Source: a virus. From it: a DNA stretch of 24,015 nucleotides. Shown here one piece after another: positions 8,469 to 20,922 of this stretch. The first letter of the stretch is position 1, and each line of letters begins with the position of its first letter. Location of the stretch: the IMG/VR virus record IMGVR_UViG_3300047661_000107, positions 1 to 24,015 of that record; one strand, 5' to 3'. The notes under the pieces are model-generated. The model was not told the DNA's origin, ran no database searches, and worked only from the letters and a program-made list of their open reading frames with translations. The position numbers were made by a program, and so were the translations under genes.

Positions 8469-9032
8469 ATGAGCAATCAAAACAATTTGAATATGACTTC
8501 AACAACGCCGCCTGTAAGTGGCAATAGTATTGCACCTGGATACAGACAAGCAGATTTCAGTTCAAAATCACGCGTAGAAAGATGGTTTTTTACGCCTATA
8601 GAAAAACTAAAAAGTAAAGATGATGGTTTTGCCATTTTAATATTGCTTTTTCCATTGTATGAAAAATATTTAAAAGTTTCTTCACAAACCCCCGATGAAA
8701 TACAATTTAGCAATGGGAATAAGGTTTTTGAGATCATAGGAAAAGATTTAGGAGTATCAAAAGAAATCGCTTATGTAGTCTGGCAACATTTTAGAAATGG
8801 ATTGCTTCACCACGCCATGATAAAAGAATCGACTGAGTATAGTTTTCATTTATGTCAAAACGGAGAAGCAATACACATTTGTGACGTTAAAAAAGAAATT
8901 GGTAAAAAAGAAATTGGTGTTAACCCCTTTAAAATGCGTGAGATTTTATTGAAAAAATTAAAAAGTAATATGGATATATGGCAAAACGACAGTCTCTATA
9001 AACTTGCCTATGAGTATGAGCCAGATAAATAA
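8469..9032 (+). CDS. Unknown cargo protein with a HEPN-type RN-x3-H motif
   Basis: This is a 187-residue AT-rich gene with an AAGGAGAT site upstream. The protein has a polar N-terminus (1-35), a helical core starting ERWFFTPIEKLKSKDDGF (37-54), and a helix pair ending VVWQHFRNGLLHHAMIKES. The last contains R109-N110-x3-H114, which fits the R-polar-x3-H signature of HEPN ribonucleases, in a helical context. A degenerate copy of the same phrase, GKKEIGV, follows GKKEIG near residue 145. The 26-base gap to the next gene suggests an operon. The HEPN link is motif-based inference; I do not recognise the whole protein. Confidence 0.55.
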   Translation: MSNQNNLNMTSTTPPVSGNSIAPGYRQADFSSKSRVERWFFTPIEKLKSKDDGFAILILLFPLYEKYLKVSSQTPDEIQFSNGNKVFEIIGKDLGVSKEIAYVVWQHFRNGLLHHAMIKESTEYSFHLCQNGEAIHICDVKKEIGKKEIGVNPFKMREILLKKLKSNMDIWQNDSLYKLAYEYEPDK

Positions 9033-9058
9033 AGAGTTGTTAAAATGTGGAGGATCAG

Positions 9059-10087
9059 ATGGAATATGGCTGCGAACTGGTTAAAATACTACAAAAACAT
9101 CTGAATGAAAAAGAAAATACTACAAAATATCATAATTTTCGATTTCACTATACTTCATTGGATACGGCTCTAAATATTATTGGATCTCAAACTCTTAGGG
9201 CTACTTCTAGCTTTTACCTAAACGACCCAATCGAAGTAAAATTTGGTATTAAACGAGTTCTTCGCTATTTGTCGCGACGAAAATACAATCTCCAAAAATG
9301 TTTATTCGAAAGCTGGTCAAGCATTAACACTGAGATTTTTGTTCACTCAGGTACATTTATAGGAGATTCGCTTGACCATTGGACACGATATGGCGACGAT
9401 GGCAACGGCCTCGCACTTGGATTTTCTTCTGATATGTCCAGCTACCATGCTCCCAATGGTTTTACTTTGCTGAATGGTCCGGTCCTTTATGGATATGAAA
9501 TCAATAAACTTATTGACGCAATGTTAAGTGGCATTTATCTACGGCCAGAAGATGTCGGTGAGATGCATGTGGCATTTTGGGCTTTAATAACAGCCTGTTT
9601 TTTCTCGAAACCATACGACTGGAAAATCGAAAAAGAATCTCGAATATTAGCATTAAGTTATCCTACAACGACATTCATAAGCCCGAGTTCCAAAAGCTTT
9701 AAAAACGGGAAGAGCGGTCCTTATGTTGAGATTCCGCCTGTAATTACAGATGCTGTGCCAAATACATCAGATCTAAGATCCTATCTATCAGAGCATATCC
9801 CGTTCCATGAATTTACTACTGTTCTGGAACCAAAAGAAAGATTGCAAAAGGTTGTTAATAGATCAGAGAAAGAGCTATTACCTCTAAAACGGATATATGT
9901 TGGTCCTGCTAATTGTGATTTGAGTGTTCCAAAAACAGCAGATCAGGGATTTATTTCAATGAAAAATAAAATCACTGAACACCTGCATAATCATAATTAC
10001 AGAGTAAAAGACAAGAAAAATCCCGACGGCGTCGAAATATTGCGATCAAAAGTCTACTACAGATCAAAATCCTACAAAAACTATTAA
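9059..10087 (+). CDS. DUF2971 family protein, cargo gene
   Basis: The product is 342 residues from ATG 9059, which has GGAGG five bases upstream; a GTG at 9047 would add four residues but has no such site. DUF2971 hallmarks are present: NFRFHYTSLDTALNIIGSQT near residues 26-45 (His-Tyr), ATSSFYLNDPIEVKFG (Asn-Asp-Pro), GDSLDHWTRYGDDGNGLALG (102-121), and KPYDWKIEKESRIL near residue 190 (the conserved Glu-x-Arg). The family is widespread next to phage-defence genes and its biochemical activity is not settled. The gene is AT-rich, runs against the phage late operon, and ends 7 bases before the terminase stop, consistent with insertion as cargo. Confidence 0.75.
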   Translation: MEYGCELVKILQKHLNEKENTTKYHNFRFHYTSLDTALNIIGSQTLRATSSFYLNDPIEVKFGIKRVLRYLSRRKYNLQKCLFESWSSINTEIFVHSGTFIGDSLDHWTRYGDDGNGLALGFSSDMSSYHAPNGFTLLNGPVLYGYEINKLIDAMLSGIYLRPEDVGEMHVAFWALITACFFSKPYDWKIEKESRILALSYPTTTFISPSSKSFKNGKSGPYVEIPPVITDAVPNTSDLRSYLSEHIPFHEFTTVLEPKERLQKVVNRSEKELLPLKRIYVGPANCDLSVPKTADQGFISMKNKITEHLHNHNYRVKDKKNPDGVEILRSKVYYRSKSYKNY

Positions 10088-10094
10088 TTTTTTC

Positions 10095-12083
10095 TCACAC
10101 CTTCACCCCCTCCGAAATCACCCGGCGTCCTCTTTGCGCTCGCCGCTCCTCGCCGGGAACGGGAGCATGGATCGGCTCGGGACGCGGCATAGGCTTGTGC
10201 GGGCGGCCGTTTGGCCAGAGCAGGTTTTCGAGGTAGTCCCAGTGTTCGGAGCGGTATCGATCAATGTTCAGCAAGGACGCGGCCGCGCGGGCGTAGATGA
10301 AGACGTCAAGCGCTTCGTTGCGCGGGCGGATTTTCTTCCAGGAGCGCACCTGTTTTTTCGTCAGTTTGGTTTCGGTGACAATCAACTGTTCGGAGCAGAG
10401 TTGGCGGAAGAATTCTTCGTCAAGCTGCGGGAAGTGGCAAAATCCCGGCGGCGGCGTTAGGCCCGGCTCGGGCGGCAGGAGATTCAGCCAGCCGTAAAGC
10501 TCCTGTTTTATGAGCGAGACGCCGACGCGGTAGAGTTTGAGCGCGCCGCGTTTGCGTTTGCCTTGTTGGTAAACATCCACCGCGCGCGGCTGACTAAAGA
10601 GGATCGGCAGGCTATCCTCGCCTTTGATCGGCATGACGCGGCCATCCTGAAACTGGCGCGACCAGTTGTAGACGACCTGCGTATTGAATCCTGTGTCGAT
10701 TCCGAGGCAGCGGATATGCAGCGTCGCGCCGCTTTCGTGCTCGAAGCCTTGCAGCATCAGCGACTGAACTCCACGGTAAGCATCGCTGTCGATATTGCTC
10801 GTGTCACCTTCGAAAGTCTGATAATCGACCACCCAGTTTTCCTTGTCACGTCCCCACGCAATCACGATGCATTCGATGCGGTCTTTCTGCACATCCGCGC
10901 CCGCAGTCAGGAAGAGGCCGCCTTCAGGAATACTGCCAAGCGCGTACTCTTCCCGGCGCGCATAGAGCTTTTCCCACGCGGGCAGGTCGGCCGTTTCGAG
11001 ATACGGAAGGCCAAGAACCGTGTTGAAAAACTCGCGCCGCCTCTGGGGATCGTAGCGATCCTCCGCCCACTTGCTCGCGATTTCGCCCCACGAAAACATG
11101 CCGACCGGCGAGTAGAGCGACGACAGATGAAATCCCGCGACCTTGCCCGTATGCTCCTGCGCTTCAGGACGCCAAACGCCGCGCGCGAGCATCTCCGTTT
11201 TCTGGTGATTTTCGATCCTCTTTCCGCACTGGCCACATTTGTAATACGCAAGATCGGGGCGCCCTTTTGGCCAGTCGAGACCGGAAAAAGCGAGAGTCTG
11301 ATACGCTCCGCAATGTGGACACGGGACATAATAGCGCCGCTTGTCGCTCTCCTCGAACGCCTTCTCAATGCGACTGTTCCCCGCGACTGTCGGAGTCGAA
11401 ACGATGTAGATTTTCTTGCGTCCCGAGAATGTCCTCGTTCGCGCAATCGCAAGTCCGACCGGGTCGCCTTGCTGATTGACATTGCCAGGGTATTCGTCGA
11501 CTTCATCGAGCATGAGGTAGCAGACGGGCTTCGAGCGAAGGTCTGCCGAGCTGTTCGATGCGGCAAGAGTGAGGTGCCCCCCGACAAACTGTTTGAGGAA
11601 AAGGTTGTTCGCTCCGTCGCGCGTCCCATGCTGCGTGTAGATTTTGGCGGCGACACTGGGGCAGTCCTCGATCATCGGCTCAACTCGGATTCGAACGTTA
11701 TCTTTGATATTTTGGATCGTCGGCCAAACAATCATGGTCGGACGCGGCGCGATATCGATAATATAGCCGAGCCAGTTGATCCCGGCCTCAGTCGCTCCGA
11801 TTTGCGCGCCTTTCATAAAGACGACAATTTCGTAAGGCGACGATGCGCTGAGCGCGTCCATGATCTCGCGCAAATACGGAGTTCGCTCGGTTCGCCACGC
11901 GCCAGGCTCGCCCGACGATTTACTCGACAAAATCCGAAAGCGATCCGCCCACTGCGAAACGGTGAGCGAGAAATTGGGACGAAAACCGGCGCAGCCGACC
12001 GACGCGATCCATGCATCAATTTCATCGTCGGTCGCAAGCTGTTTTTGCGGCCTACCGGAACTCGCCGAGCGCCTTGGCATCAT
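10095..12083 (-). CDS. Terminase large subunit, lambda gpA family
   Basis: The protein is 662 residues, close to lambda gpA (641). The N-terminal ATPase has a Walker A-like MKGAQIGATEAG (residues 90-101) and Walker B with catalytic Glu in CYLMLDEVDEYP (188-199), followed by the coupling motif VSTP. A four-Cys insertion (CPHC at 255-258, CGQC at 283-286) is typical of the GpA group. The C-terminal nuclease starts with TAGADVQKDRIECIVIAWG (Asp397), and LGIDTGFNTQVVY follows. It cuts and translocates phage DNA into proheads with the small subunit upstream, which it overlaps by 32 bases. The next virion gene is about 2.5 kb away because plus-strand cargo intervenes. Confidence 0.95.
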   Translation of the reverse strand: MMPRRSASSGRPQKQLATDDEIDAWIASVGCAGFRPNFSLTVSQWADRFRILSSKSSGEPGAWRTERTPYLREIMDALSASSPYEIVVFMKGAQIGATEAGINWLGYIIDIAPRPTMIVWPTIQNIKDNVRIRVEPMIEDCPSVAAKIYTQHGTRDGANNLFLKQFVGGHLTLAASNSSADLRSKPVCYLMLDEVDEYPGNVNQQGDPVGLAIARTRTFSGRKKIYIVSTPTVAGNSRIEKAFEESDKRRYYVPCPHCGAYQTLAFSGLDWPKGRPDLAYYKCGQCGKRIENHQKTEMLARGVWRPEAQEHTGKVAGFHLSSLYSPVGMFSWGEIASKWAEDRYDPQRRREFFNTVLGLPYLETADLPAWEKLYARREEYALGSIPEGGLFLTAGADVQKDRIECIVIAWGRDKENWVVDYQTFEGDTSNIDSDAYRGVQSLMLQGFEHESGATLHIRCLGIDTGFNTQVVYNWSRQFQDGRVMPIKGEDSLPILFSQPRAVDVYQQGKRKRGALKLYRVGVSLIKQELYGWLNLLPPEPGLTPPPGFCHFPQLDEEFFRQLCSEQLIVTETKLTKKQVRSWKKIRPRNEALDVFIYARAAASLLNIDRYRSEHWDYLENLLWPNGRPHKPMPRPEPIHAPVPGEERRAQRGRRVISEGVKV

Positions 12084-12682: not shown

Positions 12683-14854
12683 TTAGTACAACGCAAAATT
12701 GGGATCTTGGCCACTACTTCTTAGATCAGCTTCTTTCAAATATGTCTCCGATAATATTTTTTGTTCGCCTAAGAGATCTGTACGTTTTGATATCTCTTTA
12801 ACTCTATCAGTTAAGGTCTTTAATTCAATATAATCTTTAAAAAATATCGGATCAAGTCGATATTTGAATTTCGGGGTAGTTCTATAATCTATCGTATCTT
12901 CACGCGTCTTTGTCATAAATAATTCGAGTACTTTTAGAAGATCTTCATCGTTTTGCATCTTTTCTTGAAACCACTTCTGAACCTTATCTTCGTGTTGCCA
13001 AGTCTTCCATCGTGCAAGCAACAGCGGTAATTGTGGGTGAGATACTAAAGCCCCATCATTAGCAGCTTCTTCAATGCGTTTTAGAATGATCTCACCCAAC
13101 TCGCTGAGAGCTTCAGAAGGAATAATCTGTTCTGATATTTGTTTTGTTTCAATTTTTTCTTTTTCGCGTTCAAAAATAGAAATAATATAAGAAACGAATC
13201 CTAGACTTTCTCCGCTTTTTGCGACATCTTTAAGAATATCTAGCCGATCTTTAGGAGCTATTCTTTTCAGAAGCTTGTTGATAACTCTAAGAATATAGAC
13301 TTGAATATGAATTTCAAAAGGTCCCGGATCAAGATTCTTTTCCTCGAATATCAAGCTATCCGCTGAATTGACAAAACCATGTATAGCCTCGGAAATATAA
13401 TCTTTAGGAATTCGATCTTCGGCATAATCTTCAATGCGTTCGATAAGATTCTTTATTCTAATAATGTTGTATTTACTTGATTTGGTTTTATGCAATAGAA
13501 AGTCTCGAATTGATGACCGATCCTTCATTAATTCAATTGCATTATTTATTTCTTGAATTTCGATGGCTTCTACTGGTAAAGTCAATCGAAAATATCTGTC
13601 GAAAAATTCATCGCAACATATACGAAGCTCCAATCTATGATTACGCCTGTTTTCCCAATATTTTATATCCACATCTAATATACTATCGAGCCTTGGAAAT
13701 AAATATGCGATCAGATATCTAACATGTTTTCCTACTTCATTGTTTAGGTTTTCAGTCCAAGAATTATGAAACTTTGAAAAATCAACTTCTGTATGATTAG
13801 CCGAAATAACGGTCGTCTCGACAAAATAATCCGAATTATTTCTTAAAAGATCGTAAATATCTGGAAAATATAATCTCAAGACCTCTACGGCAATAAAGTC
13901 AATTGTGTTAACATCATTTTTTATTGATGGATATGTTATAGATAAAACGTTCAGAAGTCTAATTATATCGCGGGGAGTTCGGATAAAATAATCAATACTA
14001 TCAAGATATACATTTGTCCAACGATCTTGATCAAATGTACTTGAAGTAGTGTCCTTAAGCAATATATCAAGTTTTTCTAAGAATAAGCTATGCAATTTGT
14101 TTTTATCAGGAGTAGGGAGTTCGAAAGGAGCTTGAATAATTTTTTGTAAATATTCAGACCCTTTTCCTTCAACTCCTTGTATTCCATTTAAACATCGCTC
14201 AACAACTTCTCGGTCAAATGCAAGAAGATATATAACATTCGGAAAATCCGCAACAGTTTTAACTACTTTAAAAATTTGTCGCATTTCTTCTGTTGTTAAT
14301 CGATCAATATCGTCAATAATAAATAATATTTTTAATTTTGATTTTTTTAGTTTTTCTTCCGCATCTTTTTTTAGTCGTTGCAAATCTTTTGGAGAAGCCT
14401 TTAATAATCCAGCTATTTTATTACCAATAAATAAGGCTGGATGGAGTTTATCCAATTGTGTAGCTGAAATAGCCTTGGAGAATGAGGATAATGCGTTTAT
14501 TGCAGCTCTATCTTCTTCCTGAAGATCAAATCCAACCTTAATATTTAAACAATTAAAAAAAGTTCGTAATAATCCCTCCTCCCCACTATAAAACCACGGA
14601 TCGAAGCGCAACACAATTGTCTTAATATTTTCTTTACGCTTTATTGTTGAGTTTTCTATATAGTGTTGAACAAAGTTTACAAGAGTACTCTTTCCAAGGC
14701 CCCAAGAGCCGTATATTGCAGTAACAAAGCCATCTTGACAGGGCATATTGACTAGGCTTTTAGCTAGTTCTTCAGCGAAGTGAGCGTAATCTAGCTTGTC
14801 GGCCTCTGGATTTTCGAGAGCCTTGTCTGTAGAAAATAAATCTAATGTACTCAT
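12683..14854 (-). CDS. KAP-family P-loop NTPase, AT-rich cargo gene
   Basis: The protein is 723 residues. Walker A is GSWGLGKSTLV (49-59, Lys55), followed by IVLRFDPWFYSGEEGLLRTF (80-99), a KAP hallmark, and Walker B ILFIIDDIDRLT (176-187). NVIYLLAFDREVVER and DYFIRTPRDIIRLLNVLSIT complete the NTPase core. The rest (about 330-723) is helical and charged without named domains. I see no transmembrane insertion in the NTPase core, so this is probably a cytosolic form. KAP NTPases occur in phage-exclusion and defence systems such as F-plasmid PifA and Qat. Strong AT bias against its GC-richer neighbours, and its own promoter, indicate an acquired moron. Function in defence is inferred. Confidence 0.85.
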   Translation of the reverse strand: MSTLDLFSTDKALENPEADKLDYAHFAEELAKSLVNMPCQDGFVTAIYGSWGLGKSTLVNFVQHYIENSTIKRKENIKTIVLRFDPWFYSGEEGLLRTFFNCLNIKVGFDLQEEDRAAINALSSFSKAISATQLDKLHPALFIGNKIAGLLKASPKDLQRLKKDAEEKLKKSKLKILFIIDDIDRLTTEEMRQIFKVVKTVADFPNVIYLLAFDREVVERCLNGIQGVEGKGSEYLQKIIQAPFELPTPDKNKLHSLFLEKLDILLKDTTSSTFDQDRWTNVYLDSIDYFIRTPRDIIRLLNVLSITYPSIKNDVNTIDFIAVEVLRLYFPDIYDLLRNNSDYFVETTVISANHTEVDFSKFHNSWTENLNNEVGKHVRYLIAYLFPRLDSILDVDIKYWENRRNHRLELRICCDEFFDRYFRLTLPVEAIEIQEINNAIELMKDRSSIRDFLLHKTKSSKYNIIRIKNLIERIEDYAEDRIPKDYISEAIHGFVNSADSLIFEEKNLDPGPFEIHIQVYILRVINKLLKRIAPKDRLDILKDVAKSGESLGFVSYIISIFEREKEKIETKQISEQIIPSEALSELGEIILKRIEEAANDGALVSHPQLPLLLARWKTWQHEDKVQKWFQEKMQNDEDLLKVLELFMTKTREDTIDYRTTPKFKYRLDPIFFKDYIELKTLTDRVKEISKRTDLLGEQKILSETYLKEADLRSSGQDPNFALY

Positions 14855-15757: not shown

Positions 15758-16888
15758 CTACGCCGCCTTTCCCAGGTATTTAAAGCCCTGAACCGCTCGA
15801 AAATGTCCGCCGTATCCGGTCCCCGTGTTGTGTTCGCCATGGCGTCGGTTGGATTTATGCATCGTTCGCGCTGAATTGCCTTTGTTGCCGCCATAAAGGT
15901 TGGCGGAAACTTGAATCCAAAGCGGACTTCGCCGAAGTGTTGCCGCGAGCCCCGGATGCGATGTGTGAAACAGCGTCGGCAATGGCCGATGCCATTTGTT
16001 TTCGCCGTCAAGATAGCGCTGGCAGATCGCGTTCAGGAAGCGCATCCCGACTCCCGCGCCTTGCCATTCGGGCATTGTCACCAAGCGGCAGGCCCGAACG
16101 CAGCCGATATCGAGACGCGGTGACACTGCGAGATGCGTTACGAGCTCGCCGTCGACGGTCCCGACATAACAAGTCGCCGCGATCATATGCGGAAGCTTCA
16201 AATAGTGATGCGGCTCAAAAAGAGGCCAGTAACGCCAGTCGCCCTCGAAAATGTCGAGGTTGAAATGCGGGCGTCGCCAAAGGCGCCTCCCGGCGAACTT
16301 GCCCGTGGCCGTATCGAAAACCCAGTCGGGCTCAAGCCAGTCCACGATATCGTAATGGCAGCTGAGCAGCACGGCTTTTCCGCCGGTCCGCTTCCATGCC
16401 TTGCTAAACGCCAGCGCGCCTATCTTTGCAATCTGTCGATCCACGACCGATGTAAACTCATCGATGACGATCCGCTCTGGAGCCTCCGCGATAATGCGCG
16501 CAAGGTCTGCCCGAAACTTCTCGCCATTGGAAAGCACATGATAGGGACGAAGCCAAGACGGCACGTCGCCGAGACCAACCGCTGCTAAGGCAGCCGTGAC
16601 ATCATCGAACGATCCACCCGGCGCGATGGCTTCCACTATCGGCGCATCGTTCGGCCAGCCTGACGGTTCGTAAAGTAAAGAATCGTCGCCGAAAATCTTC
16701 TTCCCGAGCGACGTCTTCCCGCTGCCGGATGGTCCGACCACGAGGCCGATTTTCCAATCATCGTCATCGATATCGAGGTCAAAAACGCGGTCGAAGTTGC
16801 AGCCGGATTCTGCGTTGAAAAGGCTCTTCACCCGCGCCGCGCGGTAGCTCGAAAAGTCGCTGCAGTTGTTGTGTATACACGCTTTCAT
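15758..16888 (-). CDS. ABC-type ATPase fused to a GNAT-like acetyltransferase domain
   Basis: The protein is 376 residues from ATG 16888, which overlaps the ParB-like stop as ATGA. The ATPase half has Walker A GPSGSGKTS (52-60), a signature-like LSNGEKFRADLAR (119-131), Walker B RIVIDEFTS (139-147) and an H-loop LLSCHYDIVDWL (His178). The C-terminal half has a GNAT pattern: HLAVSPRLDIGCVRACRLVT, then motif A MPEWQGAGVGMRFLNAICQR (272-291). This layout matches COG2401, a known ATPase-acetyltransferase fusion. There are no membrane segments, so it is a soluble ATPase and not a transporter. Phage Mu Mom, a DNA modification enzyme, also has a GNAT fold, so a base-modification role is possible but unproven. 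Confidence 0.8.
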   Translation of the reverse strand: MKACIHNNCSDFSSYRAARVKSLFNAESGCNFDRVFDLDIDDDDWKIGLVVGPSGSGKTSLGKKIFGDDSLLYEPSGWPNDAPIVEAIAPGGSFDDVTAALAAVGLGDVPSWLRPYHVLSNGEKFRADLARIIAEAPERIVIDEFTSVVDRQIAKIGALAFSKAWKRTGGKAVLLSCHYDIVDWLEPDWVFDTATGKFAGRRLWRRPHFNLDIFEGDWRYWPLFEPHHYLKLPHMIAATCYVGTVDGELVTHLAVSPRLDIGCVRACRLVTMPEWQGAGVGMRFLNAICQRYLDGENKWHRPLPTLFHTSHPGLAATLRRSPLWIQVSANLYGGNKGNSARTMHKSNRRHGEHNTGTGYGGHFRAVQGFKYLGKAA

Positions 16889-17466
16889 ACGCTCACCACC
16901 TTGACCGTATACCCAGCGTCGTGAAGCTCCGTGTATACGCGTTCCTGCTCGGATTCGCTCTCGCACATGACGATCACGCCGTACTGCGATTTGTAGTCCA
17001 TTTCCTTTTGCCGCTCGGCGCCATCGGCGCTCTTATTTTCGGTTAATCCCGCGATGATTTCGTCCAAGTCATCGCCATCGTAAGCGGTCCCTTCGAGCGC
17101 TAAATCGGTCGTTGCCAGATCCGATAAAAGCTCCGCGAGCGCGCTTTGATCGTCCTTGCCAAGACGTGTCGTTCGGTTGTCCGCGAGCATGATTCGAAGG
17201 GCTCGGTCATCGTCCACATCCACCCAAATAACGGGAATTTCTCGCAAATTCGCATCTCTCGCCGCCATGAACCGATGATTTCCCGCGAGCACATACCCGG
17301 TGGATTTCTGCGCGACCACCGCGCCGTAAAAACCGTTCGCGCCAATGCTCGATTCAATCGCCTTCAGGTCGCCCTGGTTGACATTGCGCGGGTGAACTTT
17401 CAGCTTCTCGCACGGCGTGATTTCGTACGCTTCATTGATCAGTTTCGCCGCTGTTTTCTTCGCCAT
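16885..17466 (-). CDS. ParB/Srx-domain protein
   Basis: The protein is 193 residues from ATG 17466, with AAAGGAG upstream. Residues about 15-115 form the ParB N-terminal domain: LKVHPRNVNQGDLKAIESSI, GAVVAQKSTGYVLAGNHRFM with the GNHR box (conserved in nucleotide-handling ParB-like proteins), then REIPVIWVDVDDDRALRIML and ADNRTTRLG. The C-terminal 50 residues are acidic and end in a small alpha/beta unit (YGVIVMCESESEQERVYTEL). There is no HTH DNA-binding domain of a true partition ParB. The gene opens a coupled set with the ABC/GNAT and formyltransferase genes. The repeated GTATAC motifs just upstream make it a candidate to bind them. Confidence 0.8.
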   Translation of the reverse strand: MAKKTAAKLINEAYEITPCEKLKVHPRNVNQGDLKAIESSIGANGFYGAVVAQKSTGYVLAGNHRFMAARDANLREIPVIWVDVDDDRALRIMLADNRTTRLGKDDQSALAELLSDLATTDLALEGTAYDGDDLDEIIAGLTENKSADGAERQKEMDYKSQYGVIVMCESESEQERVYTELHDAGYTVKVVSV

Positions 17467-17482
17467 CACTTGCTCCTTTCCC

Positions 17483-18967: not shown

Positions 18968-19156
18968 TCAAGCCGCCAATAATCCGAAACATGAAAAATG
19001 CCAGGATTTTTCCCAGCCTTTTTCTTGTTTCCTTTTGCGCTGTCCTTCGGCTTCCACTTCGTGGAGGCGCTGTTCGTCCTCATCGATGTACGCCAGGTAC
19101 TCGTCCGCTTCGTCGCAGTCGATTTCTTTCGCCGTTTTTTCTTTGCCATCGATCAT
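18968..19156 (-). CDS. Small acidic protein coupled to the replication gene
   Basis: The product is 62 residues. The ATG at 19156 overlaps the replication gene stop as ATGA and has a perfect AGGAGG six bases upstream. It reads MIDGKEKTAKEIDCDEADEY, then LAYIDEDEQRLHEVEAEGQR and a Lys/Arg-rich segment before a short hydrophobic end. A coiled-coil helix is likely. I do not recognise it. A different frame (ATG 19149, 91 residues, very basic) overlaps, but it lacks the coupled start and looks like a shadow. Confidence 0.6.
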   Translation of the reverse strand: MIDGKEKTAKEIDCDEADEYLAYIDEDEQRLHEVEAEGQRKRKQEKGWEKSWHFSCFGLLAA

Positions 19157-20445
19157 GATCCGCCTCCTATCGCGGCTCCAAGAACTGCGCTTCGCAGAGC
19201 CTCTCGGTAAACACCCACAAGCGAAGCGCATTCGCCGATTTCGATGCCTTTTGCTTCGCAGCGTTTGACTGAGTTTCGAATGGCCGGGTTTCTGCAAAGG
19301 GCCTTTTTCGCCTCGAAGATGGCTTTCGCCTGCTCGCCGGGAGCCAGAGTGCTCCACCATTCGCGGAACTCCGCATCGGACTTGGCGGCGTCTGCGGCTT
19401 CCTGCTCCCGGCGTTTGGTTTCCAGCTCACGGTTGCGTTTTTGCCATTCTCGCTCATCTCGCTGTTTTTTTGCTTCGAGCCACTTTGACGGTGGTCCCCA
19501 ATCTTCGATGATCGCTTTGAGAAACATCGCCTTCGGGTTCGAGGACGCCTCTCGAAACGTCCAGTATCGCCACTGACGCTTCGCCGCGTCAATTGGCGAT
19601 TTGCCGCTTGCTCCTCGCTCCGAGAAAAGCCGCTGCACGTCAGCAAGTTCGAGCGCCGGATGATCCGAGTCTCCAGCCGTAAGTCTCGCTTCAAGGGCCT
19701 CCGAGGCCGTCGCCTCGCGCGCGCGCCCGAGGTTATCCGCCGCCGCTGTATTTATAGGGCTTGGAGACGGAGAAGGATCAGGAGGCGGAGAAGGAGAAGG
19801 AAGAGGAGATGGGGCATTGCTGTTTTCGCCAATGAGCAATGCTCTTTTCTGCTCCGAGCATTGCTCCATGCATGCTTTAGCATTGCTTGACGTATCAAAG
19901 GGCAATGCATTTTCTATCGAAGCGCTTTGCTCGCCTTCATCAGTCGCATTGCCCGCTGGAGCATTCGGCATTGCTGGAGTTGGACTTGAGCTTTCCTCTG
20001 CTCCCGACTGAGCATTGCCCGTTTCATCAAAAGGCAAAGCTTCCTGGGCGCTCGAGCTTTGCTGTTTCAAGCGATCAGCTTCATGCTTCTTGTTCCAACG
20101 AGCAATCGCCGCGTTATGGGCAATCTCCGAGCGGCTTTTTGAGCCCGCAACGTAAGGATTGTGTTCTTCCCAGTCGTGCATCGCATACAGACCTGGAGCG
20201 ATTTCGTCAATCAAGGAAAGCGACAAGAGCATCGCGAAAAACTCGCCCGATTCGCCTTGCCAGTGCGCGATCATTTCGATATCGTCAGCATCCATTCCCT
20301 CGAAAATTCCGTCCGGCTTGTTGACCGCGCAGTATTCGATCAGGCGAAGATGCCCGAGCACCGCATCGCTTCCGAAGCGATGCTCCAGCTTCATGATCTT
20401 GAGATTCGAAAAGTATCCGGATTTCACTCGAAAATCACTGCTCAT
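19153..20445 (-). CDS. O-like phage replication initiator (replisome organiser)
   Basis: The protein is 430 residues; the ATG at 20445 has AGGAAA upstream, 9 bases after the VRR-NUC stop. Residues 1-115 form a winged-helix replisome-organiser domain: SGYFSNLKIMKLEHRFGSDA, VLGHLRLIEYCAVNKPDGIF, ADDIEMIAHWQGESGEFFAM, then MHDWEEHNPYVAG. Residues about 120-245 are a polar linker rich in Ser, Glu, Ala and Pro (with a PSPSP run near 215-232). The C-terminal 180 residues hold SPIDAAKRQWRYWTFREASS and a long charged helix. It would bind the origin and recruit a host helicase. The linker-coding DNA carries the 22-bp-spaced repeats, so the gene probably contains its own origin, as lambda O does. Confidence 0.75.
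   Translation of the reverse strand: MSSDFRVKSGYFSNLKIMKLEHRFGSDAVLGHLRLIEYCAVNKPDGIFEGMDADDIEMIAHWQGESGEFFAMLLSLSLIDEIAPGLYAMHDWEEHNPYVAGSKSRSEIAHNAAIARWNKKHEADRLKQQSSSAQEALPFDETGNAQSGAEESSSPTPAMPNAPAGNATDEGEQSASIENALPFDTSSNAKACMEQCSEQKRALLIGENSNAPSPLPSPSPPPDPSPSPSPINTAAADNLGRAREATASEALEARLTAGDSDHPALELADVQRLFSERGASGKSPIDAAKRQWRYWTFREASSNPKAMFLKAIIEDWGPPSKWLEAKKQRDEREWQKRNRELETKRREQEAADAAKSDAEFREWWSTLAPGEQAKAIFEAKKALCRNPAIRNSVKRCEAKGIEIGECASLVGVYREALRSAVLGAAIGGGS
19755..20062. other. Candidate phage replication origin
   Basis: The iteron array is flanked at its left end by a purine-rich plus-strand tract at about 19761-19814 (repeated GGAGAA units; it encodes the Pro-Ser run on the minus strand). 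Iterons inside an initiator gene, next to a strand-asymmetric tract, match the layout of lambdoid origins. The unwinding element is not evident; the tract is GC-rich, not AT-rich. Confidence 0.6.
19814..20062. repeat. Iteron array: 7-bp core GCATTGC at an exact 22-bp period, twelve positions
   Basis: GCATTGC or its complement GCAATGC occurs at 19814, 19836, 19858, 19880, 19902, 19946, 19968 and 20012. The grid positions between and after these hold near-matches: GCTTTGC at 19924, GCTTTCC at 19990, GCAAAGC at 20034 and GCTTTGC at 20056. All twelve are spaced exactly 22 bp, about two helical turns, so bound protein would line one face of the DNA. Since 22 is not a multiple of 3, the protein frame rotates and the repeat is not a protein repeat. 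The bases between the cores vary. Confidence 0.85.
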
Positions 20446-20454
20446 GCCGTTTCC

Positions 20455-20922
20455 TCATGCGCCTTTCGCATTGCTGCAGAAACGTTTGCTCGCTTCGTCA
20501 CAGTCGCGCAGCGCTTCGGCGGGCGAGCGCCAAATGTAGAGTTTGCCTCGGATTTGTCTCTCTTTTTGCTCTGGGGTAAGCACTCCCTTAGCCCGTTTAA
20601 CATCCGCCATGAGGTAGAGATTGCCCGGCCACTCCTTGCGCGTGACGAGCAAATCACCAAGCCCCTTCGTCGCTCCATAGCCGCTTTTTGGCCATACGAG
20701 AGCGCCGCAAAGATCGCAGCGAACACGCTTATAACGATGGACGGTCGAAAGCACATCATAGCCGGATGCCCGCAGCGTGAGCATAATGGCGCTCTGGATT
20801 TCCTCTTCCTTCGCATCTTTGAGCGGAAACGGGACATGATCCTGTTCCGCCAGCTGCTTAAGGATCGATTCTCGATGCGCGCGGGAAAATAATTCAAGAT
20901 CCTTTGTTTCAAACATCGCCAT
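20455..20922 (-). CDS. VRR-NUC-type nuclease
   Basis: The product is 155 residues from ATG 20922 (a second ATG at 20916 is also well placed). The fold pattern of the VRR-NUC branch of PD-(D/E)XK nucleases is visible: EEEIQSAIMLTLRASGYDVL (39-58), GYGATKGLGDLLVT with Asp90, then LYLMADVKRAKGVLTPEQK, where Asp107-x-Lys109 takes the place of E-x-K and Gln119 follows. An extra CDLC pair (69-72) is inserted before the active site. Family members occur in phage replication modules and may process branched DNA or resolve junctions. It sits 9 bases before the replication initiator gene, in the same early operon. Confidence 0.75.
   Translation of the reverse strand: MAMFETKDLELFSRAHRESILKQLAEQDHVPFPLKDAKEEEIQSAIMLTLRASGYDVLSTVHRYKRVRCDLCGALVWPKSGYGATKGLGDLLVTRKEWPGNLYLMADVKRAKGVLTPEQKERQIRGKLYIWRSPAEALRDCDEASKRFCSNAKGA

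Follow-up and report, generated by a model that had tools for sequence, protein, structure and literature searches.

The window, meaning the whole stretch of DNA that was analyzed, is a virus record of 24,015 bp with a G+C content of 51%. Its minus strand carries a gene for a predicted replication initiator, and inside this gene lie an array of short repeated sites (iterons), a tandem tract, and a palindrome. The features are listed below, with their basis in parentheses.

20455 to 20922, minus strand: endonuclease-like neighboring gene, upstream of the initiator gene (phrog_93 endonuclease, E = 9.5e-5)
19153 to 20445, minus strand: replication initiator gene of 430 amino acids, which bears the array (matches to phrog_9474 and phrog_3926)
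20041 to 20445, minus strand: codons 1 to 135, winged-helix N-terminal domain with a long last helix at 102 to 135 (AlphaFold2 model)
20095 to 20133, minus strand: codons 105 to 117, AxxRW helix RSEIAHNAAIARW, putative reader of GCAATGC (helix class compared with core)
19814 to 20062, no strand assigned: iteron array of 12 cores on a 22-bp grid (core positions and codon shuffles)
19814, 19858, 19880, 19946, 19968, and 20012: GCATTGC, 6 exact cores
19836 and 19902: GCAATGC, 2 exact cores
19924 and 20056: GCTTTGC, 2 non-exact cores
20034: GCAAAGC, 1 non-exact core
19990: GCTTTCC, 1 non-exact core
19763 to 19813, no strand assigned: 6-bp tandem tract of about eight CCWTCT-like units (begins directly after the last core)
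19713 to 19732, no strand assigned: perfect GC-rich 20-bp palindrome CCTCGCGCGCGCGCCCGAGG (about 30 bp past the tract)

The N-terminal part of the initiator matched the "replication initiation protein" profiles phrog_9474 (E = 3.8e-9) and phrog_3926 (E of about 6e-8). No Pfam family was detected in the protein at E ≤ 0.1, and PF07120 (DUF1376) gave no match, whereas the relatives L022, L023, and L030 did match PF07120. The AlphaFold2 model had pLDDT values of 92 to 98 across residues 11 to 120 and displayed a winged-helix order of elements, the long helix at 102 to 135, and disorder from about residue 145 to 235. The predicted order of elements in the DUF1376 domain of L228 was similar to that of the N-terminal domain in the window. 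The array encodes residues 128 to 211 and the tract about residues 211 to 228, which form a linker that is predicted to be disordered. A Foldseek search with 2 models returned nothing below an E-value of 0.2; among the best 50 matches, 4pta had the highest probability (0.75) at a non-significant E-value of 0.58. Searches of PDB sequences with 3 domain alignments gave only chance matches, such as ribosomal eS17 and calmodulin, and no close relative of the full-length protein was found with patterns in viral contigs or with tblastn in phages. The endonuclease-like gene upstream, as judged from its profile match, suggests that the initiator gene is part of a replication module. Neither a helicase nor a loader gene was recognized beside the initiator gene.

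Elsewhere in the window, a ParB-like gene was located at 16885 to 17469. The large terminase subunit (10095 to 12083) had Wolbachia phage WO as its nearest named phage (48%) and was 72% identical to the short contig L002. It was also noted that the segments at 12683 to 14854 and 8469 to 10087 are low-G+C stretches (33% to 38%) inside a phage of 51% G+C. The former contains a P-loop NTPase-type ORF, and the stretches also hold ORFs without an assigned function; they resemble accessory genes of recent acquisition, and a role in defence is possible.

A 7-bp core was present at 12 of the 12 positions of an exact 22-bp grid, in both orientations. The core positions confirmed the count of 8 exact and 4 mismatched cores in the first-pass annotation, with 3 of the latter having one mismatch and 1 having two. 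A single phase of 22 contained all 8 exact cores of the initiator gene, and the edges of the grid were sharp, with positions 19792 and 20078 being off the pattern. The bases between the cores, which had been described as unrelated, were mostly so, but 2 pairs of spacers were partly similar, and the cores at 19902 and 20034 have atcaaaRGGCAAWGC in common. When synonymous codons were permuted within the gene, such that both the protein and the codon usage were kept, the mean was 1.5 cores per gene and the maximum was 7, with at most 6 on one phase, and none of the 20,000 trials reached the observed grid. For any 7-mer at any period from 15 to 34 bp, the best of 300 shuffles had 4 copies, compared to the 8 observed. 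The proposal that every core lies on one face of the DNA was only approximately correct: with a helical repeat of 10.5 bp, a spacing of 22 bp makes 2.095 turns, so that each core is rotated about 34 degrees from the one before, which adds up to one full turn across the 12 sites. A common face needs about 11 bp per turn. In the relatives, the iterons follow an underlying 11-bp step, and the 22-bp period is twice this step. The GC skew across the 24-kb fragment did not clearly change direction where the array lies.

The tract at 19763 to 19813 is an addition to the earlier observation. On the coding strand it reads CCATCT CCTCTT CCTTCT CCTTCT CCGCCT CCTGAT CCTTCT CCGTCT, and it is C/T-rich rather than A+T-rich. 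A unit of this type is unlike the classic A+T-rich opening site; we regard the tract as a putative site of strand opening or loading.

The same layout was identified in other phages by 2 separate routes. A DNA-only search of 2.9 million viral contigs for four GCWWWGC motifs at 22-bp spacing, which was blind to proteins, identified 35 loci, compared to a chance estimate of well under one. By inspection, 22 of the 35 loci were located in winged-helix initiator genes of several families, at G+C contents of 31% to 63%. The array was always placed just past the N-terminal domain, and in nearly all of them a short tandem repeat followed directly after it. A control search with 25-bp spacing yielded 5 loci, all of which were simple tandem repeats. 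Retrieval by the N-terminal domain, which used the protein only although the query alignments were drawn from grid-found loci and are biased to that extent, recovered 51 loci of the window type, 80 of the DUF1376 type, and 80 of the Lin1244_N type, or 38, 59, and 62 linkers after the removal of near-duplicates. The DNA-alone and protein-alone searches thereby converged on the same genes, those for window-type, DUF1376, and Lin1244_N initiators.

In each of the 3 families, GCAATGC ranked first among the 7-mers that are repeated outside the tandem tracts. At least 3 copies were found in 11 window-type, 14 DUF1376, and 7 Lin1244_N loci, and at least 2 copies in 22, 27, and 20 loci, respectively. 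The distance from copy to copy was 11, 22, or 33 bp, with 12, 45, and 57 bp also being common in the window type. Repeated 7-mers of any sequence were enriched at lags of 11 and 22 bp relative to synonymous shuffles, for example in 43 of the 59 DUF1376 linkers, compared to 9.1 expected, and a lag-11 repeat was present in 22 of the 32 DUF1376 loci without GCAATGC (3.9 expected). All 3 reading frames were used by the cores (134/66/26), and the relatives retained the grid even though the linker peptide differed, in agreement with the earlier suggestion that the pattern is kept for a function of the DNA. A P-loop ORF followed the initiator gene in 17/36, 21/55, 39/60, and 12/42 loci and preceded it in 2/36, 4/49, 2/48, and 2/38 loci; in named records, the ORF that follows encodes either a helicase or a DnaC-like loader.

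A few further arrays were also encountered. In L176 (1432 to 2457), GCAATGC recurs every 12 bp with near-identical spacers that encode SSNA repeats, off the 11-bp step, which is apparently a recent expansion. In Vibrio phage 1.183.O (L481, 1861 to 1890), part of an array of the type found in the initiator genes had been automatically annotated as a "CRISPR spacer", and arrays of this kind may have been mistaken for CRISPRs elsewhere. Chromosomes of Bacteroidales (L053 to L132; Prevotella, Hallella multisaccharivorax, and Paludibacter) contained many 22-bp GCAWTGC arrays in both orientations, mostly without a long ORF and outside initiator genes, and often with repeated spacers. About a dozen of these were located on one scaffold in H. 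multisaccharivorax. We regard the Bacteroidales arrays as distinct from those of the initiators.

The tract unit tracks the protein family and not the iteron class. A 6-bp unit (CCNTCT) was present in 32 of 38 window-type loci, a 7-bp unit (AACCANN) in 79 of 108 DUF1376 loci, and a 5-bp unit (AAAGG/AAAGT) in 40 of 62 Lin1244 loci, all in excess of codon shuffles (14, 13, and 9 for the 6-, 7-, and 5-bp sets, respectively). The strand composition of the tract was lopsided in each of the 3 families. The array preceded the tract in all 97 of the 97 arrays for which both were scored, and the gap from the last core to the tract was mostly 0 to 2 bp or about 11 to 15 bp. GC-rich hairpins occurred at a similar place in a minority of the relatives. 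A hairpin of the ACCCCCCTACCCCCCGCAAGCGGGGG type past the tract was highly conserved in L441, L446, L453, L458, L389, L037, L039, and L173, being 91% to 96% identical where the flanks differ, and was found in a minority of the DUF1376 loci. A C-run/G-run hairpin was considered as a part of the general layout and rejected, since it was present in only 12 of 208 loci.

The sequence of the iterons covaried, across families, with the helix that ends the N-terminal domain. We divided the helices into classes by simple motifs: AxxRW helices paired with GCAATGC cores, GKKGGRP helices with AACCCA cores, AGKxSA helices with GTTCAA/GTTGAA cores, and AGxxGG helices, which were found in the discovery set and had no member in the holdout set, with AGCAA/GCTTGA-like cores. 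The AxxRW-GCAATGC association in the discovery set had p-values of 4e-4, 2e-10, and 7e-5, family by family. The other classes were defined on the discovery set, and for these the holdout set alone serves as a test. For this set, a renewed search supplied 49 additional DUF1376 loci, all non-redundant, and the rule was written down before their sequences were read. GCAATGC cores accompanied 10 of 12 AxxRW helices (0 of 37 otherwise), AACCCA cores 9 of 12 GGRP helices (0 of 37), and GTTCAA cores 18 of 20 AGKxS helices (3 of 29), with the 3 exceptions in the last comparison carrying AGIASA, which by eye belongs to the same class. Across the 49 loci, the p-values for the rule were about 1e-7 to 1e-8. 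Among the named phages that could be checked, Mcat20 and IFTN6 (AGKAS helix with GTTCAAC) and zth2-2 and IME-Ap7 (GGRP helix with AACCCAA) also fit the rule. The window helix RSEIAHNAAIARW (AIARW) falls in the GCAATGC class, and the predicted core is present. With this helix, the 22-bp GCAATGC array, and the tract after the last core, the window belongs, by its sequence, to the class with 11-bp-step iterons and a tandem tract.

An association between helix and iterons can be inflated when neighboring DNA has a common descent. In L441/L453 (AKRW; GCAATGC) and L458/L446 (GGRP; AACCC), the domain bodies were 91% to 93% identical. At the DNA level, identity was 75% to 95% in the body, fell to 38% to 48% in the most divergent stretch of 60 columns, which corresponds to the last helix and the first part of the array, and rose again to 91% to 96% across the heptamer tract with its following hairpin, after which the C-terminal domain diverges anew. 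This pattern indicates that the helix and the iterons move together while the body and the tract stay. Furthermore, the helix class changed about 25 times on a tree of DUF1376 bodies, compared to 53 times with shuffled labels. The recurrence across families and the swaps thus argue for a functional tie and against ancestry alone.

Our main reading, to which we assign a probability of about 0.86, is that the array is the phage's replication origin, situated inside the gene of its own initiator and read by that initiator. The first-pass annotation had already proposed an origin at this site, and the proposal holds up in that the same core and step recur in 3 predicted initiator families. According to this model, the N-terminal winged-helix domain would read the GCAATGC cores through its last helix, and spacings in multiples of 11 bp would let the protomers pack side by side along almost one face of the helix. 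Polymerisation may run along the array toward its end, and the complex would separate the strands in the neighboring 6-bp tandem tract, with the helicase being loaded there. If all sites are held on one face, the DNA would be at 11.0 rather than 10.5 bp per turn, which over 242 bp would by calculation amount to about one turn of untwisting that could be spent on melting the neighboring tract. By analogy, the cases of RctB, the DnaA-trio, and plasmid Rep proteins suggest a role for the tract.

With moderate confidence, we extend this to a general scheme, whereby one helix and its matching array constitute an interchangeable specificity cassette that moves between near-identical initiators and across families. 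The origin would then be predictable from a short protein motif, and the separate family-specific tract of 5, 6, or 7 bp would mark the opening site.

It is improbable that the array is instead an autoregulatory operator, at which the initiator blocks its own transcription or limits its own amount, for example by handcuffing, with replication starting elsewhere. Such an operator would also be expected to consist of self-binding sites within the gene, and the variation in array length, from 4 to 12 sites, is compatible with it. However, repression has no need for a linker array next to a tract, and a site in the linker, far from the promoter and with a constant family-specific tract, is the layout of the lambda O and pSK41 rep origins. 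Still less probable is that the sites serve another protein, such as a host nucleoid protein or the ParB-like partition protein encoded at 16885 to 17469. The presence of this gene in the window and the intergenic 22-bp GCAWTGC arrays in Bacteroidales, outside any initiator, are in its favor, but it leaves unexplained why the last helix of the initiator itself predicts the iteron sequence, and the G+C contents of 31% to 63% and the widely different hosts speak against it. That the repeats are no DNA site at all, but were created by slippage or by selection for a low-complexity linker peptide, is hardly credible: the linker is predicted to be disordered, the tracts encode PSPSPS or KVKES-like peptides, and the SSNA repeats in L176 resemble a recent expansion, yet the window spacers are not repeated, the cores occupy all 3 frames (134/66/26), the grid is lost in codon shuffles, the unit of 6, 7, or 5 bp yields different peptides in different families, and helix and core covary.

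Most tailed phages, to our knowledge, have no mapped origin. If the origin reading and the cassette scheme are true, a rule by which the last helix gives the iteron and the family gives the tract unit would, for many phages, locate the origin and name the initiator. The PSPSPS and KVKES repeats and other odd peptides in the linkers would be by-products of DNA sites, and the exchange of a small cassette would let replicons change their origin specificity. Lambda O and pSK41 are known examples of an origin within an initiator gene. In open-access PubMed Central, we found no paper on GCAATGC iterons, the function of DUF1376, or the helix-iteron rule, no report of binding or replication for any of these families, no description of the general three-family architecture, and no assigned function for DUF1376 and Lin1244_N proteins.

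The lambda origin consists of four 18-bp iterons and an A+T-rich tract (PMC7466680). As in lambda O, the iterons in the window are placed where the initiator gene encodes its linker, beside a tract of special composition, and in many relatives a helicase-loader gene follows, as in lambda. The window differs in having 12 sites at exactly 22 bp, the GCAATGC core, and a C/T-rich hexamer tract. The annotated lambda O iterons start 20, 24, and 23 bp apart, with the core ATCCCTC and no GCAATGC, which bears out the earlier statement that core and period are unlike those of lambda. The description of the gene as "O-like" stands for the layout but not for the sequence, since lambda O and the window protein were not similar in a BLASTP comparison (best E-value 2.5).

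In the RepA_N initiator of pSK41, an N-terminal winged-helix domain binds Rep boxes in its own linker-coding DNA (PMC5703833). The window resembles the RepA_N plasmid initiators (pSK41, pTZ2162) in the location of the sites within linker-coding DNA, with binding being predicted for the window. The modelled N-terminal domain has a winged-helix order of elements, and the non-significant Foldseek match 4pta belongs with this group. Unlike these, the window protein has no RepA_N Pfam match and 12 sites rather than four boxes, and no last-helix code has been described for the RepA_N plasmids. In RctB at ori2 of Vibrio cholerae, the DnaA-trio, and plasmid Reps, short repeats beside the iterons are bound as single strands (PMC10797057). 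The order of double-strand sites followed by short repeats is shared by the window with ori2/RctB and the DnaA-trio; single-strand binding is a property of theirs, and their units are 3 to 5 nt, of other sequences, and belong to unrelated initiators.

The Rac prophage of Escherichia coli has an active origin, oriJ (PMC3945230). Its ydaU gene (DUF1376) has the last helix AGKASVQAR, GTTCAA-type iterons, and a 6-bp GATAAA-like tract, and is followed by the loader-like gene ydaV. We infer from this arrangement that oriJ lies in ydaU. The iteron core is different from that in the window, and the DUF1376 Pfam model misses the window protein, but the winged-helix domain, the iterons, and the tract have the same layout in both, and Rac ydaU thereby offers a laboratory test system.
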